From positions 1-41,645 of IMG/VR virus record IMGVR_UViG_3300035564_000010: a stretch of 41,645 nt of DNA; one strand, written 5' to 3'. The notes under the pieces were generated by a model that saw only the letters and a list, made by a program, of their open reading frames with translations, was not told the origin of the DNA and searched no databases. Of this stretch, positions 5,203-41,645 are shown one piece after another; the first letter of the stretch is position 1; each line of letters opens with the position of its first letter. Both the position numbers and the translations under genes were made by a program. The stretch comes from a virus.

Positions 5203-5523
5203 ATGCGAGGCTACCCCAAATACATCGCTACAAAGCAGGATTTAATAAACCTGCTCGCCATGCCGGAATATCGAAACCAGGCGCAAGCGGATATGAAAAA
5301 GATCGCTGATGTCGCGGATGACAAAGTCACCCGGACAATCAGCATCGCCGCGGACGGTTCGGCGGTTACGGAGGAAATCATCAATCCCCTTCCTCTCTGG
5401 AAGCAAAAGGGATTTACAACCCGGAAGGTGCTGTCGGCTCTGATCACGAAAGAGGCAGCGGCTGATGTGATTCTGGAAGAAAAGCCCGTCGAGGAAGGGC
5501 TTTCGGAGGAGGTGATTCCATGA
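5203..5523 (+). CDS. Small conserved-type phage protein next to the receptor-binding gene
   Basis: The product has 106 residues, and AAGGAGG lies eight bases before the ATG. It starts MRGYPKYIATKQDLINLL and is charged and largely helical in appearance, with an acidic C-terminus (EEKPVEEGLSEEVIP). The opening recalls small proteins found beside tail-fibre or DGR-target genes in other phages, but I cannot name a function. Its stop overlaps the start of the Mtd-like gene by four bases (ATGA), so the two are translationally coupled. That suggests a chaperone or accessory role for the receptor-binding protein, by inference only. Confidence 0.6.
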   Translation: MRGYPKYIATKQDLINLLAMPEYRNQAQADMKKIADVADDKVTRTISIAADGSAVTEEIINPLPLWKQKGFTTRKVLSALITKEAAADVILEEKPVEEGLSEEVIP

Positions 5524-7781
5524 ACGCAAAAGTCACCAAGGACATGAGCGACAACATCAAGGCGGCGGCAATCCTCGCGGATTTCTACGGCTACAAGACC
5601 GCCTATACCGACGCCATCGGATCGCGTGGCGGGCAGATCCTGAACGACAAGAGCGGATCGCCGAAGGTCGTGACGTTTAAGGGCTCGAACAACATCCCGC
5701 TGAAGATAGGCGACAACTGGTTTTTCTGCGACACGGACGCAGACATCACGATCCCAAACGATCTTGACGATTATCTGGCCGATAGCGTAGTGGAGGACGG
5801 CACCGGCACATGGACTGCTGCTTCCGCAAACGTGTCGTTTTCGACGGACACCGGGCAGGTGAAACTTGCCGTTGCCGCCGGATTTACCACGGGCCTGGTC
5901 GGGTACATCGACTTCGCGGCGAAGGATTTCTCCACGACTGGGAAGAACGCGATATCGTTTCTGATTACATCGAGCATCAACCTGTATCACGGGGATCTGC
6001 AATTTCTCGCGGATGAACACTCGGCCTGCGCCTCTCCATCGTGCACACTGACTGTACCGGGACTCAAGGCAGGCGTGCAAACGCGGGTGATCCTGTCCTT
6101 TACCGCGCTTGCGGCGGACAGGGACGCAATCATCTCGATCGGGCTGAGCGCCACCCGTGATTTCGGCGCGGCGGATATCTGGATCGACGACATCAAGACG
6201 ACCTCGATCGAGGCGGGCAAGGATTATTGCGTCTACGCCTGCGACAATTCCGGGACGCTGGTGTTCAAAGTCAGCAAGGCGACGACCTACCCGGCGGGGT
6301 TCGCGGCGGCGACCTCGCGGAAGATCGGCGGGTTCCACACGCTGGCCCTGGACGTCGGCATTATGGATGTGACGCTGACGGCCGCTGACGTGCCGCACGA
6401 CGCCGGGACAATCCTGATCGACACGAAAACATACACGTTCAAAACCACGCTTACCCCGACGGAGGGGGAAGTGTTGATCGGCGGAAGCGCCGCCGCTGCC
6501 ATGGACAATCTCAAGGCGGCCGTCAACCACACCGGGACCCCGGATACGGATTACAAGTGCGCGCTCGCCCATCCGACGGTGCAGGCAACGACGAACACGA
6601 ACACAACGCAAAAATTCCAGACGAGGACCGCCGGGGCGATAGTGTCAACCATATCCACCTCGGCAACCCATTTAACGTTCTCGCCCAGCGGTTGCCCGCT
6701 CGGGCATACATTGGAGCTGTTTGCCACGGCGGACATCATCCCGCACTCGATCTGGGATCTCAAGCACCGCCCCCGGAGCGCCCCGGCGGGGATGGTGTTC
6801 TCGCCTCGCACGGGCAAATGGGCGGATATCTATCTCGTTTCCGGCACGGGGGCGTCTTCCCTCTCGGTAAACGGCGGGACGATCTCGGATACCCGCGACT
6901 GGAACGATTTCGTGGATGACGCGGGGATAGTCAACAAGCGCCTGCCGACCGACAGCGAACACCAGTGCTTTTCGACAGGCTGCAACGAAGAGACGAACAT
7001 TATCGGGTCCGCCGATCCGGTTACAACGGGGCCGCACATCGACACCGCCGGGCGGCGCATGATCACCAACATCGGCTGCGAGGATATCGCCGGCGTGATG
7101 TGGCAGTGGCTGCAGGATCAGAGTTACCGCTACACACCGGACGGAACGTCGCTCACCGCGGCGCAGACCTGCGCGGTGACGCACGCGGCCTCTCCCGGAG
7201 GAAACCCGATCTACCTGAAATACGGCACGGACGGAGATGCCTATCTGTGCTGCAACATCGCCGCGGATACCGTGGACAAGTTCATCACCTTCGGGACGCT
7301 GTACAAGCTCATCATCAAGCATGACGTCAACGCGAACACGGGATTGCCGGTGTATTTTGACGATGACGGAACCGCCCCCAACCGCCTCCTGGTCAACAAC
7401 ACCCTGAACGGCGGCAAGGACGTTTACATCATGGCCAACAACGCCGATTTCTGGCTGCCCGTTATCCATAACGCCAATGCAGCCACCACGGGGGTGGCAA
7501 TCTCCTACGACGATGGCGCGGATGAGCGGCTGGAAGGCACGCTGGCCGGAGGGGTAAACGCCAACATGGACCTCTCGTGCGGCACTGGGTTTAACTACTA
7601 CAATCTGCCCGGAACAAAAGGGTCTCTATATAGGCAGGGCGGAACGGCGGATGTAAAGCTGGCCGCGGGCGGCAATTGGAACAGTGGCTCGGGTTGCGGT
7701 TCGCGGGCTCGTTATGCGTATTACTCTCGCTGGGACACGAGTACGAGTTTCGGCGCGCGCTTCGTCTCGGAGCCACTATGA
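5520..7781 (+). CDS. Mtd-like receptor-binding protein with C-type-lectin fold and DGR-type variable C-terminus
   Basis: The protein has 753 residues. Residues about 1-280 are an N-terminal virion-attachment region. Residues about 282-390 match a module common in phage structural proteins (ILIDTKTYTFKT, then GEVLIGGSAAAAMDNLKAAV). From about 400 onward it follows the pattern of major tropism determinant proteins: DIYLVSGTG, DTRDWNDFVDD, KRLPTDSEHQCFS, DTAGRRMITNIGCEDIAG, MWQWL. These are the C-type-lectin/formylglycine-enzyme-like fold. The last 39 residues (GGNWNSGSGCGSRARYAYYS, then FGARFVSEPL) have the form of a DGR variable region. Such proteins sit at tail tips and bind receptors. No reverse transcriptase gene is in the window. 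Family assignment is by motif recognition. Confidence 0.8.
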   Translation: MNAKVTKDMSDNIKAAAILADFYGYKTAYTDAIGSRGGQILNDKSGSPKVVTFKGSNNIPLKIGDNWFFCDTDADITIPNDLDDYLADSVVEDGTGTWTAASANVSFSTDTGQVKLAVAAGFTTGLVGYIDFAAKDFSTTGKNAISFLITSSINLYHGDLQFLADEHSACASPSCTLTVPGLKAGVQTRVILSFTALAADRDAIISIGLSATRDFGAADIWIDDIKTTSIEAGKDYCVYACDNSGTLVFKVSKATTYPAGFAAATSRKIGGFHTLALDVGIMDVTLTAADVPHDAGTILIDTKTYTFKTTLTPTEGEVLIGGSAAAAMDNLKAAVNHTGTPDTDYKCALAHPTVQATTNTNTTQKFQTRTAGAIVSTISTSATHLTFSPSGCPLGHTLELFATADIIPHSIWDLKHRPRSAPAGMVFSPRTGKWADIYLVSGTGASSLSVNGGTISDTRDWNDFVDDAGIVNKRLPTDSEHQCFSTGCNEETNIIGSADPVTTGPHIDTAGRRMITNIGCEDIAGVMWQWLQDQSYRYTPDGTSLTAAQTCAVTHAASPGGNPIYLKYGTDGDAYLCCNIAADTVDKFITFGTLYKLIIKHDVNANTGLPVYFDDDGTAPNRLLVNNTLNGGKDVYIMANNADFWLPVIHNANAATTGVAISYDDGADERLEGTLAGGVNANMDLSCGTGFNYYNLPGTKGSLYRQGGTADVKLAAGGNWNSGSGCGSRARYAYYSRWDTSTSFGARFVSEPL
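7666..7781 (+). other. Candidate DGR variable region (VR) at the 3' end of the Mtd-like gene
   Basis: Directly seen: the last codons encode the GNW..G..CGSR.R.....RW......FGARFVSEP pattern. At the positions that vary in known DGR targets the codons are TAT, TAT, TAC, GAC, AGT, AGT, GGT and AGT. All can arise from AAY (Asn) codons by changing only adenines. Known: DGR reverse transcriptases mutate template adenines, and AAY codons in the template give exposed variable residues. Inferred: this segment was diversified by such a system at some time. No second, adenine-rich copy (template repeat) was found by eye in the window, so the source would lie outside it or be lost. Confidence 0.6.
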
Positions 7782-7804
7782 CGGAAAACGGAGAAAACGG
7801 AAGA

Positions 7805-7828
7805 CGTCGCCGAAATTTTTCGGCGACG
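7805..7828 (+). other. Perfect hairpin/cruciform just downstream of the VR
   Basis: Arms CGTCGCCGAA (7805-7814) and TTCGGCGACG (7819-7828) are exact reverse complements of 10 bp around a four-base loop (ATTT). It begins 24 bases after the Mtd-like stop codon. There is no T-run after the 3' arm, so it is not a standard intrinsic terminator. In the Bordetella phage DGR a GC-rich hairpin/cruciform downstream of the variable region aids target recognition. The same role here is an inference from position and shape. Confidence 0.6.
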
Positions 7829-7857
7829 GAGCGAAGGCGGAAGGGTTTGTACAGGCC

Positions 7858-8025
7858 ATGAAGTCATTGTCGAAGCTGGCCGCGATCGACACCGGTGCCC
7901 ATGTCTCGGGCGTCCACGGAGACGCCAACACCGACTACGCAGGCAACCCGAACAGCATGGGCAGCAAGCCGGACATAGGGGCTTACGAATATCAGCCTGC
8001 AGGATATGGCAGGTGGACATTTTAA
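7858..8025 (+). pseudogene. Remnant of a beta-helix tail protein C-terminus
   Basis: From the ATG at 7858 the frame encodes 55 residues. They include AIDTGAHVSG and NTDYAGNPNSMGSKPDIGAYEY, the typical final turn of parallel beta-helix surface proteins (NxxG...DIGAYEY). The frame is open further upstream, but there is no good ribosome binding site and the length is far below that of such proteins. I read it as the end of a longer gene whose body was lost, perhaps when the Mtd-like gene or a DGR cassette entered or left. It could still be translated as a small protein. The fold assignment is fairly good; its status as a remnant is inferred. Confidence 0.45.
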
Positions 8026-11995: not shown

Positions 11996-12298
11996 ATGGA
12001 TCATCTTTTTTGGACAGGGTTAGCAGTGGGGATAATCATCGGCGCCGTTCTCGGGTTGCTCATCACGGCCCTGGTGATCGCGGGAAGGGAAGACGCGAAG
12101 TACCTGGGCCAGCACGGGGCCCTCCACTGCCGGCCGGTGAACGATAACGGGGTTTTTAAGTATTCGATCGGATGTGATGAAAATACAACCATCGGGCAGA
12201 TACGGGACTGGCAGCGCGTCAACCTGCGGATCGCGGATACCCATGACTACAAAATGGACGCTGTGAAAATCTGTGAGCCGGATGAGGTGAAACAATGA
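11996..12298 (+). CDS. Membrane-anchored small protein
   Basis: The ATG at 11996 has GGGAGG nine bases upstream and follows the previous stop closely. The product has 100 residues with an N-terminal anchor (LAVGIIIGAVLGLLITALVI) and a soluble part (residues about 32-100) that includes LHCRPVNDNG, SIGCDENTT and VKICEPDEV. It has no recognised domain. Its stop overlaps the next tiny gene (ATGA). Confidence 0.55.
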   Translation: MDHLFWTGLAVGIIIGAVLGLLITALVIAGREDAKYLGQHGALHCRPVNDNGVFKYSIGCDENTTIGQIRDWQRVNLRIADTHDYKMDAVKICEPDEVKQ

Positions 12299-12977: not shown

Positions 12978-13580
12978 ATGAAATACTCATTCACGGGAGA
13001 AGTAAAGGTTGAATTTGGTATCACGTTACGCCGGATAAAATACGACGAAACAGGGGAAATCGGCGGGTGGATCGAAAAGGAGTTGAACCTTTCAGTCTCC
13101 GGCGATGCGCGGGTCTCCGGCGATGCGTGGGTCTACGGCGATGCGCAGGTCTACGGCGATGCGCAGGTCTCCGGCGATGCGTGGGTCTCCGGCGATGCGC
13201 AGGTCTACGGCGATGCGCAGGTCTACGGCGATGCGTGGGTCTCCGGCGATGCGTGGGTCTACGGCGATGCGCGGGTCTACGGCGATGCGCGGGTCTACGG
13301 CGATGCGCAGGTCTACGGCGATGCGCAGGTCTACGGCGATGCGCAGGTCTACGGCGATGCGTGGGAAATAACACCGCTCTGCATCCATGCCACTCGGTGG
13401 AGCGTGTCGGTATCCTCAAAAACCACCATATCTATTGGCTGTAATACGCTGACACCTACCGAGTGGGATGAGCGCGGCGATGATTTGGGAAGAAAGGAGG
13501 GGATGACCGATACGCAAATGGCCGAATACCGGCTCTATGTTGATCTTTGCAGGGCATGGATGGCTATCTATTGCAAGTGA
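12978..13580 (+). CDS. Hexapeptide-repeat (left-handed beta-helix-like) protein
   Basis: The protein has 200 residues, with GGGAGGGG before the ATG. The N-terminus (MKYSFTGEVKVEFGITLRRI, EIGGWIEKELNLS) is typical of phage proteins that carry pentapeptide- or hexapeptide-like repeats. Residues about 41-130 hold 15 consecutive six-residue units of the form [SY]GDA[WQR]V, which would build a regular beta-helix. The C-terminus (about 131-200) is a different domain with two cysteines and a helical end. Such proteins are often labelled acetyltransferase-like, but no active-site residues are visible, so catalysis is doubtful. The gene is bracketed by direct repeat A, and its repeat tract could change length by slippage. 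Confidence 0.65.
   Translation: MKYSFTGEVKVEFGITLRRIKYDETGEIGGWIEKELNLSVSGDARVSGDAWVYGDAQVYGDAQVSGDAWVSGDAQVYGDAQVYGDAWVSGDAWVYGDARVYGDARVYGDAQVYGDAQVYGDAQVYGDAWEITPLCIHATRWSVSVSSKTTISIGCNTLTPTEWDERGDDLGRKEGMTDTQMAEYRLYVDLCRAWMAIYCK
13098..13367 (+). repeat. 18-bp tandem repeat tract, 15 units
   Basis: Fifteen in-frame units of 18 bp, variants of TACGGCGATGCGCAGGTC, run through the middle of the gene. The differences fall at two codons only: TAC or TCC at the first, and CAG, TGG or CGG at the fifth. Low sequence divergence between units suggests recent expansion or ongoing conversion. Confidence 0.95.
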
Positions 13581-39900: not shown

Positions 39901-39961
39901 GATCGCGGATTCATTCGATCAGGACCGGATGACAACCGGCATTCTTACGAGGACGGCATGA
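36944..39961 (+). CDS. Tail tape measure protein
   Basis: The protein has 1005 residues, starting at TAATG. The N-terminal third is helical (LDLNAAKYVQKQQDILESGK, AADRLDNFKERMSAAAAGTV-like helices, EDVKTAYEKITDAIS), with a membrane-like segment (WISATVAIGAAMVVISKAG, about 110-128). A long charged coiled coil runs through 360-530. From about 670 the chain becomes Gly-rich, with two copies of a motif: LNYVPADNYLANLHEGEAIL and LDYVPYDNFPILAHKGERVQ, usual near the end of tape measures. It sets tail length and may help DNA cross the membrane. It directly follows the chaperones that hold it. Confidence 0.88.
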   Translation: MPGNPVGTMFVELDLNAAKYVQKQQDILESGKITANKLEEQYKNLGIKSADHFDLLRQKAENSYALIKNAGTSSAGDITRAHTAMTEKITSLNEQQFGKSITSIGFWKDHWISATVAIGAAMVVISKAGEYMEIGAKAQQAAESFDLVGKSAGYSADRLDNFKERMSAAAAGTVDDSDIMQKAVKGMVLGLSDDQMVGIMEAARISARVAGEDVKTAYEKITDAISTGMPKALRQYGLVSKEEAVIVNAALKAGVEGIDLYRIAMTNASIQAAKFGEVHDTAAEKIQRHRAILNEAKETVAQWALAVAASTIQYLTHTEKQLLIMDGMRKQKEQGAAADMEDAENGIAMQERSKALYLTGIKEKTEAAKGAEAERKRIEAEEKKAAELLKKMQNDSTAAYIKGVDEEIEVNEKALREEAAEQKKYWNDVDKLREDSLKDYLLGLEKETEEVGKAMNEQYFAEKKATADRLTAERDLYKDLRGYDDQYYEASQALIASQAAEYRKKGIDEIAVAAWVAQETEKQAIRKAKAEGDFMAGVNAGFIEMQNNAMTFGKAGYEVFNTLATTSQKTMSDVLFDGIKTGTIDTEKIWTTFSDNMLRKFTDIVGQMVVDAAAKDIALAFQANWTADSSAVLGLLNKVWDLGSSLVGGSGAGSVGSDVGDWAAGAGGYGSHATGLNYVPADNYLANLHEGEAILTKEQADMWRRTSGDAAFTKSNLAAASAFIRSGAFAMESAGAYQEWQTSPYGPMAEGRGDQSFVNPVNPLIFSAQFEGENDYVIRYRDGSVQHLDISDSNNTFSSRYGAGIVQTVGQAIMSYVNPLVGAANAYLYSASQGGETWENTLKAVVSYYAGESAGGGASGTDTGLASYVGKAGLGYAIKAGMGSLFGGGASGSGGGIGFAGMDDGGLFASLSGSMGAIAPQSSRFSFPMFGAKNGLDYVPYDNFPILAHKGERVQTAGEVAGLVDEIRALLPYLRVMAKTGVKLARIADSFDQDRMTTGILTRTA

Positions 39962-41103
39962 AGATAATCCGCCCGATAACGATCACCGATGCCATGATGA
40001 CATCCTCAAATGTCCCCGATGTTGCGGCTATCGGAACAAGTACAACTTCCCTGGCCATTGGAACCGGGTCGAAAACCTTTACCACACAGGCCAGCCTTCC
40101 CATCATCGCCGGTGAATGGATGAAGGCAGCGAGTGCTGCGGACAATGCAAATTACATGTATGGGAAGGTAACATCCTATACCGGCACCACGCTTGTGATC
40201 AATGTTTCCGTCGTCGGCGGCAGCGGGACAAAGACAGATTGGCAAATCGCTTACGGCTGGGATGTCGGGGCGACCTATCTTGCCGCGGATCGCGCGCAGG
40301 TTGCATCAACCCATAAAATCTATGAATCACTGGCTGGCGCGAATGTTGGCCATGATCCGGTTGTAGACTGTGCCCTTGCCGTTCCCCTCTATTGGAAAGA
40401 AGTCTCCGCAACGAACCGCTGGAAAGCATTCGACAACAAGGTCGGATCACAGACATCCCAGGCGACCTCGATCACCTACAGGATCACTGCCGGTCTCCAA
40501 TTTGACAGCATCGCCTTCCTTAACCTCGATGCCGTTTCGGTGCAGGCGGTGCTTACCGATCCGGTTGATGGTGAGGTTTATAATGAAACAGTTGACCTTT
40601 TGGCGACGGGTGCCTCCGGAGTTTATTCGATTATCGATTGGTACACCTACTTTTTCAGTAGCGTCATAAAGGCTACGGACTGCGTAATGTTCGACATTCC
40701 GCCCTATCTCAATGCCGTACTCGATATCACCATCACCTATACGGGCGGCACGGCAAAGGTGGGGGGGATCATGCTCGGGCTGAAAACGACTATTGGCAAT
40801 ACCCTTTATGGCGTCGGGGTTGGGATTCGGGATTATTCCCAAAAAGAGGCGGATGATTACGGCGTCTATTCGATTGTTGAAGGGCCGTTCTCAAAGCGAA
40901 TGAGTGTCGACATGACGATGGTGAATACCATCATCGATGAGGTTTCCCGGCTGTTCGCCATGTATCGCGCCATTCCTATCGTTTGGGTTGCCGATGAATC
41001 GTATTCGTGCCTCATCATTTACGGGTTTTTTAAGGACTTTGAAATCGTGATTCCGGGACCGGTAAAATCAGAATGTAGTCTTGAGATTGAAGGCTTAACA
41101 TAG
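39958..41103 (+). CDS. Distal tail/baseplate-type protein with an N-terminal fibre module
   Basis: The product has 381 residues, with a start overlapping the tape measure stop (ATGA). Residues about 20-100 contain a module with SLAIGTGSKTFTTQ, MYGKVTSYTGTTLVINVSVV, GGSGTKTDWQIA, which recurs in the next gene. Residues about 110-370 read like a distal tail protein common in siphoviruses: WKAFDNKVGSQTSQATSITY, GLQFDSIAFLNLDAVSVQAV, IDWYTYFFSSVIKATDCVMF, IRDYSQKEADDYGVYSIVEG and RAIPIVWVADESYS. It is probably part of the tail tip and may bind carbohydrate. Assignment is by motif and gene order. Confidence 0.65.
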   Translation: MKIIRPITITDAMMTSSNVPDVAAIGTSTTSLAIGTGSKTFTTQASLPIIAGEWMKAASAADNANYMYGKVTSYTGTTLVINVSVVGGSGTKTDWQIAYGWDVGATYLAADRAQVASTHKIYESLAGANVGHDPVVDCALAVPLYWKEVSATNRWKAFDNKVGSQTSQATSITYRITAGLQFDSIAFLNLDAVSVQAVLTDPVDGEVYNETVDLLATGASGVYSIIDWYTYFFSSVIKATDCVMFDIPPYLNAVLDITITYTGGTAKVGGIMLGLKTTIGNTLYGVGVGIRDYSQKEADDYGVYSIVEGPFSKRMSVDMTMVNTIIDEVSRLFAMYRAIPIVWVADESYSCLIIYGFFKDFEIVIPGPVKSECSLEIEGLT

Positions 41104-41113
41104 GAGGCCCATC

Positions 41114-41645
41114 ATGCCAATATCAACACCCCCTACCCCGCCAAGCAGAAGCGCACCGTCCACGTTTTCTACTCTTGCGGATGCGTTCCTCGCGTGGTGG
41201 GTAAATACATTCGTGCCGGAGATCAATGCCGCGATCACGGCTATGAATCTAAACGACACGACGGCGGCCAGCACAACCAGCGTGGCAATAGGAACCGGGT
41301 CAAAAACATTCACCGTTGACACGGCGAAGAGTTTTCAGCCCGGCATGAGCGTGATGATCGCTCACGATTCCTCGAACTGGATGCACGGGCAAATAACCTC
41401 CTACAATACAGGGACCGGGGGATTAATAGTCAATATCTCGAACATCATGGGCAGCGGGACGGAGGCCACCTGGACGGTGACGTTATCGGCTCCGGTCAAC
41501 GCGATGGCTTCCTCCACCTCCGCCTCCGGGGTGATTGAGATCGCCACGAATGCAGAAGCCCTTGCCGGATCGGACACGGCGCGGGCAGTGACTGCAGATG
41601 ACTTCCTCTATGTGCTTAATACCCTGAATGTCCGCCGCTGGAAAC
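41114..41645 (+). CDS. Tail fibre/adhesin protein, 5' part (gene runs off the right edge)
   Basis: The ATG at 41114 has TAGGAGG upstream, eight bases after the previous stop. The frame is open to the end of the window (177 codons plus one base). An early segment (TLADAFLAWWVNTFVPEINA) is typical of phage fibre N-termini. Next come the module STTSVAIGTGSKTFTVDTAK with WMHGQITSYNTGTGGLIVNI, and a fibre motif IATNAEALAGSDTARAVTAD. The frame continues exactly into the frame entering at base 3, so the whole gene is probably 370 codons with its second half at 1-581. It is a host-recognition protein by motif. Confidence 0.75.
   Translation, partial: MPISTPPTPPSRSAPSTFSTLADAFLAWWVNTFVPEINAAITAMNLNDTTAASTTSVAIGTGSKTFTVDTAKSFQPGMSVMIAHDSSNWMHGQITSYNTGTGGLIVNISNIMGSGTEATWTVTLSAPVNAMASSTSASGVIEIATNAEALAGSDTARAVTADDFLYVLNTLNVRRWK

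Follow-up and report, generated by a model that had tools for sequence, protein, structure and literature searches.

A phage Mtd-type receptor-binding protein probably orphaned from its DGR cassette, and the apparent recurrence of cassette separation among its relatives

Introduction

A diversity-generating retroelement (DGR) is a targeted mutation machine, and its reverse transcriptase (RT) normally lies beside the target gene. The window analysed here, the whole 41,645-base viral record IMGVR_UViG_3300035564_000010, contains a gene for a Mtd-like protein ending in a DGR-type variable region (VR), and a first-pass annotation noticed neither an RT nor a template repeat (TR) with it. This raises the question of how a DGR target came to stand alone and whether its tip can still be rewritten. 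The first-pass annotation left two answers side by side, a host-encoded or co-resident DGR acting in trans, or a lost cassette and a frozen variant. We addressed the question by comparing the window with related loci in IMG/VR.

Results

The product of ORF 5520-7781, the coordinates of which are exact, belongs to the Mtd family (Table 1). In addition to the Pfam domain mtd_2nd, the tail protein family phrog_11262 (PHROGs; E 5e-50) and, by phmmer against PDB sequences, Mtd-M1 1yu2 (E 4.5e-8) match this protein, with a second phmmer stretch to Mtd-M1 covering the C-terminal 'GG.W...S..GSRA' region, and Mtd-U1 matches a profile of the product at E 3e-20. Residues 232-753 were modelled with AlphaFold2 (mean pLDDT 68.9; the VR-bearing end mostly 57-91, the loop region before the lectin domain poor), and the top five Foldseek matches of the model are the five solved Mtd variants (E 1.7e-9 to 4e-8). 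These align to the model in VIA-align with Z 19.3-19.8 across 225-236 residues, compared to Z values of at most 13.6 for the next fold relatives, among them formylglycine-generating enzymes and the variable proteins of other DGRs. The protein combines the Mtd second domain with a C-type-lectin-like VR domain, the two features that define a Mtd-type receptor-binding protein. This bears out the first-pass reading of a Mtd-like protein with a terminal DGR variable region, for which a C-terminus of another fold had been named as contrary evidence.

Table 1. Features at and around the Mtd-family gene of the window
Feature	Position	Strand	Basis or remark
Small ORF; homologues accompany Mtd in many relatives, upstream of Mtd or after RT	5203..5523	+	
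Mtd-family tail/receptor-binding protein, 753 aa, former DGR target	5520..7781	+	homology, profile, fold
Mtd second domain, residues 199-273	6114..6338	+	PF21916 mtd_2nd (Pfam), E 9.9e-16
VR core AGGNWNSGSGCGSRARYAYYSRWDTSTSFGAR	7665..7760	+	alignment with relatives; VR/TR homology continues to ~7771 (...TCGGA, ending before GCC)
Stretch after the VR, similar to the gap between VR and TR in relatives (ACGGAAAACGGA..ACGTCG, cf. L004/L005)	7782..7830	+	read by eye
Inverted repeat, 10-bp stem, 4-nt loop ATTT	7805..7828	.	candidate DGR target hairpin or terminator
Remnant (3' part, 55 aa) of an adhesin-type gene of the choice-of-anchor-Q kind, covering just the C-terminal end of the domain	7858..8025	+	NF041518

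The VR of the window carries an adenine-specific signature. At the ten columns in which the TRs of relatives have AAY, the window reads NNY at 10/10 (AAT AAC AGT GGT TAT TAT TAC GAC AGT AGT), against a gene-wide NNY rate of 55.6%, in agreement with the first-pass observation that the variable-looking codons are reachable from AAY by adenine changes. Compared to the best-fitting TR of a relative (L085), the VR differs at 18/30 adenines and 6/66 other bases (Fisher 3e-7, a value that is the best of 47 TRs, before allowing for that choice). The TR of L001, the nearest relative of the window with 74.6% identity across the aligned constant part, gives 13/26 and 13/70 (Fisher p 0.003), and the adenine excess is absent from the constant part of the same pair (p 0.95). 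Among the other in-frame 96-nt segments of the gene, the next best has 35 non-adenine mismatches to the TRs of relatives, compared to 6 for the VR, and the share of changed template adenines in the VR (60%) equals the average of the relatives' VRs. Adenine-specific VR differences, one of the marks of a complete DGR, are hence present in the window when it is measured against the TRs of relatives, and the pattern of base changes identifies the VR as a DGR product and the gene as a former DGR target. We regard as close to negligible the reading according to which the protein is an ordinary C-type-lectin tip with a mere resemblance to DGR targets: the NNY codons at all ten columns, the concentration of differences at adenines and the nesting of the window among active DGR targets speak against it, and its support comes from the tips of the RT-less L147/L152 and of Bartonella L260/L267, which have drifted to 7-8/10 NNY and may have ceased to be targets long ago or never have been targets.

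Bartonella genomes contain many Mtd-like genes (L256-L261, L263-L267, L270, L272, L273, L275, L277), some genomes having several copies; the tips read there (L260, L267) are drifted and VR-like.

To describe the cassette in relatives we used two profile queries of IMG/VR, which gave 452 and 476 loci, 80 being kept from each. A typical locus begins with Mtd and its VR; after a gap of ~60-100 nt come the TR, a conserved spacer of ~140 nt and an RT with YCDD, then a ~100-aa ORF ending KKIDRYYTF and finally a homologue of window 5203-5523. The RT match starts 74-417 nt (median 324) beyond the VR core in 63/63 RT-bearing viral loci, and a TR was recognised in 59 of these 63, at +143 to +229 nt from the VR. 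In 47 VR-TR pairs of relatives, 740/1238 template adenines are changed, compared to 12/3274 other bases. Between near-identical phages, nearly all differences fall in the VR, with 21 differences within the VR and 0 elsewhere in 8 kb for L002/L033, 17 and 3 for L039/L046, 7 and 1 for L060/L061, and 18 and 0 for L185/L188, and cassette-bearing pairs of 94-99% identity often differ at 14-18 VR bases. These comparisons indicate that the DGR cassettes of the relatives are active; since other near-identical pairs have one common VR, diversification is episodic.

The conserved ~100-aa ORF after the RT (L001 3357-3674 and homologues) has no family match in Pfam and PHROG. We noticed no Avd-like ORF between TR and RT in the relatives, so this post-RT ORF may encode the accessory protein of this DGR type. 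The conserved noncoding stretch between TR and RT (L001 2224-2370 and homologues; CTCCTGGCTGGA...GGCCTTG...ACGGAGG...TTAGTAGG) is probably the structured spacer of the DGR RNA. Two loci depart from the usual picture. The RT-bearing locus of L099/L100 has a VR differing from its own TR at 14 non-adenine positions, VR and TR thus being decoupled, and its cassette is perhaps foreign. L009 (record 3300049911_000188) has two RTs, at 12094 and 25576, one in the DGR and the other 13 kb away.

Neither the RVT_1 profile nor the phage RT family phrog_1423 has a match across the 41,645-base record of the window, and no second VR copy or TR occurs in it, even with free mismatch at template adenines. The window record thus has neither an RT beside the target nor a TR near-identical to the VR, both of which belong to a complete DGR, and presents the features of a leftover (orphan) DGR target, i.e. 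the VR signature, a record free of TR and RT, and a cassette in relatives. The first-pass annotation was right in noticing no RT frame and no second copy of the variable region, but its impression of a complete genome goes beyond what the record shows: the record is linear, end repeats are absent and the ORF at 41114 runs past its end, so a small part of the genome may be missing, which leaves some room for a remote RT. The record is probably near-complete.

We consider it unlikely that the cassette exists in the virus and is merely missing from the record, be it by an unassembled end, a strain variant or a misjoin at the inverted repeat. The linear record with its cut last ORF and the position of the junction next to the inverted repeat would suit such a reading, as would the structural variants with intact RT and TR found at one incomplete DGR locus of Thiohalocapsa (PMC10907252). 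Yet in 63/63 RT-bearing viral relatives the RT starts no more than 417 nt from the VR core, while the window is continuous for 33.9 kb downstream, and the same absence is seen in many independent records, which one misjoin would not explain.

Repeats were observed at two further places of the record. ORFs 39958-41103 and 41114-41645, the latter cut by the record end, have a repeated domain in common (TSVAIGTGSKTFT...), which is also present in the N-terminal part of the Mtd proteins of L009 and L089. An 18-bp tandem repeat at 13041-13418 within ORF 12978-13580 encodes SGDAWVYGDAQ-type hexapeptide repeats.

The window is not alone in having a target and no cassette. Among the viral records extending at least 1.5 kb past the VR or containing an RT (n=92, window included), 29, about a third and again including the window, have no full-length RT; L059, which duplicates L032 as far as the VR, is left out of this count, and with it the RT-less total is 30. 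RVT_1 is absent throughout 17 RT-less records searched whole, several of them 35-44 kb long, and present in 3 RT-bearing controls. In a tree built from the conserved portion of the Mtd-family protein, VR excluded, the distribution of RT-bearing and RT-less records requires a minimum of 22 changes of state, and no fewer than 12 are forced by branches with strong support. The RT-less records cluster no more than with shuffled labels, and the window is nested with the RT-bearing L001 and L002 (SH-aLRT 97). The orphans have NNY at 123/130 of the TR-AAY columns, the other records at 478/490. Change counts alone lack direction, but taken together with the VR signature and the leftovers described below they argue for loss of the cassette or transfer of the target alone, and not for gain. 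The cassette appears to have been separated from its target repeatedly, in many events, within this phage family.

Several records preserve scars of such events. L043 and L003 match at ~90% as far as ~60 nt downstream of the VR, and the match resumes after the RT; L043 lacks ~1.45 kb containing TR, spacer and RT, and its joint lies inside the post-RT ORF. L007, L073, L084 and L207 all end in the same C-terminal part of this ORF, of which L010 retains more. L073 and L084 still have VR, TR, spacer and an RT stub; in L207 the VR looks joined to the end of its own TR, followed by an RT stub; L048 retains an RT stub, and L089 a TR stub with an inverted RT fragment. HNH endonuclease genes (phrog_3377 / phrog_374) are found in place of TR and RT in L059 (7522-8085) and L042 (7509-8258), and L059 is otherwise 99.96% identical across 7,479 nt, VR included, to the cassette-bearing L032 from the same metagenome.

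We also observed that the deletions in L007 (1693-1838), L043 (7414-7560), L073, L084 and L207 finish in the ..EKYG.EIPF..TIKKIDRYYTF part of the post-RT ORF, a coincidence that would suggest some constraint on where independent cassette deletions can end downstream.

In the window itself, the ~25 nt directly after the gene resemble the VR-TR gap of L004/L005, where relatives have the TR next. The inverted repeat lies 33 nt past the VR, its loop being ATTT and not GRNA; a post-VR hairpin as a family-wide feature is unsupported, the folding energy having a mean z of -0.18 in 63 RT-bearing loci. The adhesin-type fragment further downstream matches NF041518 at E 5.4e-7 over profile positions 24-58 of 58. 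Among the relatives, L025 alone matched this fragment, weakly (E 0.004), and a choice-of-anchor-Q search of 32 relatives gave no match but is uninformative, its positive control being likewise silent. Remnants of TR, spacer, RT or post-RT ORF were not found in the window, so a deletion in place is not directly visible there. In the phages closest by terminase (60-81%) we saw neither Mtd nor RT, the Mtd search having been run without a positive control. These phages were discarded as guides to the ancestral locus, as they have mainly the head module and not the tail-tip region in common with the window.

Two routes to the present arrangement are about equally likely. The cassette would have been removed in place, as in L043 compared to L003, together with the start of the adhesin gene, or the target gene would have arrived without its cassette and taken the place of most of a resident adhesin. 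The import route would agree with the remnant of an adhesin gene shortly after the target and with the terminase-closest phages apparently having neither Mtd nor RT; the cassette may have been left behind during gene transfer between phages instead of being deleted in place.

The alternative raised by the first-pass annotation, diversification in trans, is improbable in our judgement; here a DGR belonging to the host or to a co-infecting phage would continue to rewrite the VR of the window via the retained 3' end and hairpin. DGR loci are reported to act in trans within a single genome in Thiohalocapsa PB-PSB1 (PMC10907252), and in BPP-1 a transplanted IMH plus hairpin suffices to make a target (PMC3240598). 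The inverted repeat being retained 33 nt past the VR, the candidate target hairpin at 7805-7828 is intact and the site might still be a substrate, even though such a hairpin is no clear feature of the family. The pair L032 (with cassette) and L059 (without), coming from one metagenome with identical VRs, can be read in both directions, as it places both types of phage together but shows no VR difference between L059 and L032. The VR of L147/L152 is not hypervariable. A search for a matching template elsewhere, of the kind suggested by the first-pass annotation, covered 84,980 genomes and 2.9 million viral contigs, collections in which uncultured hosts are poorly represented, and gave no exact match to a 39-nt TR-shaped pattern derived from the window VR. 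We likewise give little credence to a model according to which cassette-free phages are 'cheaters', their target ends being rewritten by the DGRs of co-infecting relatives; if true, the diversification machinery would be held in common by the phage population.

As neither a template nor an RT lies nearby, the tip should be inherited unchanged apart from ordinary mutation, and we infer that the VR is frozen at present. One comparable cassette-free pair is available, L147/L152, which is 89% identical overall with downstream sequence common to both. Its VRs differ at 3/96 bases, all silent, but are already drifted (7/10 NNY), which makes the pair a weak proxy for the window. The pair L149/L150 is identical across 9,026 nt and so uninformative on this point.

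Discussion

Our data probably reflect a Mtd-type tip that was once diversified by the DGR of this phage family, has since been cut from its TR-RT cassette and is now locked. According to this model, the C-terminal lectin tip would have been diversified by a DGR of the family, the target gene would then have been separated from the TR-RT cassette, and the tip would thereafter have been inherited unchanged except by ordinary mutation, locking the phage to a single binding variant. Of the two answers left by the first-pass annotation, the lost cassette with a frozen variant is well supported by the adjacency of VR, TR and RT in relatives, by the adenine signature and by repeated loss with remnants, while diversification in trans gained no positive support.

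Looking target-first, we see that roughly one in three of the members checked in a phage receptor-binding family has no usable cassette, apparently by many separate events. Phages seem to part the mutator from its product again and again, the window being one of many cases. The natural pairs with and without a cassette, i.e. L032/L059, L003/L043 and L009/L089, make it possible to ask under what conditions adaptive host-range switching is retained or given up by a phage, and whether a target cut from its cassette becomes frozen or is served in trans. One large survey detects DGRs RT-first and itself notes that it misses remote targets (Roux et al. 2021, PMC8144416), so that targets without an RT are invisible to it. 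In our literature search, which had subscription journals and preprints outside its scope, we found no description of leftover DGR targets across a phage family.

Compared to known systems, the protein of the window has the same Mtd domain order and fold as the target of the Bordetella phage BPP-1 DGR (mtd-VR, avd, TR, brt), and both have the VR at the 3' end of the gene and adenine-directed variation. DGR target hairpins are reported 4-34 bp past the VR with a 7-10 bp stem and a 4-nt loop (PMC3240598), a range that includes the possible inverted repeat 33 nt past the VR of the window. The window differs from BPP-1 in having neither TR nor RT in its record, in the hairpin loop ATTT instead of GRNA and in a large insertion of ~150 aa before the VR stretch. 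The phrog_11262 tail proteins with a DGR, e.g. vir525 of Methanosarcinales (BK063673, L024), belong to the same tail protein family; vir525 has VR, TR and RT adjacent, in contrast to the window with no TR and RT. The incomplete DGR loci of Thiohalocapsa PB-PSB1, some of which are diversified in trans (PMC10907252), resemble the window in having a target without its own complete cassette, whereas in the window we found no TR matching all non-adenine sites and no evidence of diversification. Closest in kind are Treponema denticola strains without the core DGR, which keep leftover DGR target genes (PMC4891356): there as here, the VR differs from the TRs of relatives mostly at adenines, RT and TR are absent, and close relatives contain the cassette. 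The Treponema denticola target is a bacterial gene, in contrast to the phage tail protein of an uncultured virus described here, and the present case recurs in a broad phage family, with decay at graded stages. Leftover targets as such are thus already known from Treponema denticola; what is new is that they recur across a phage family.
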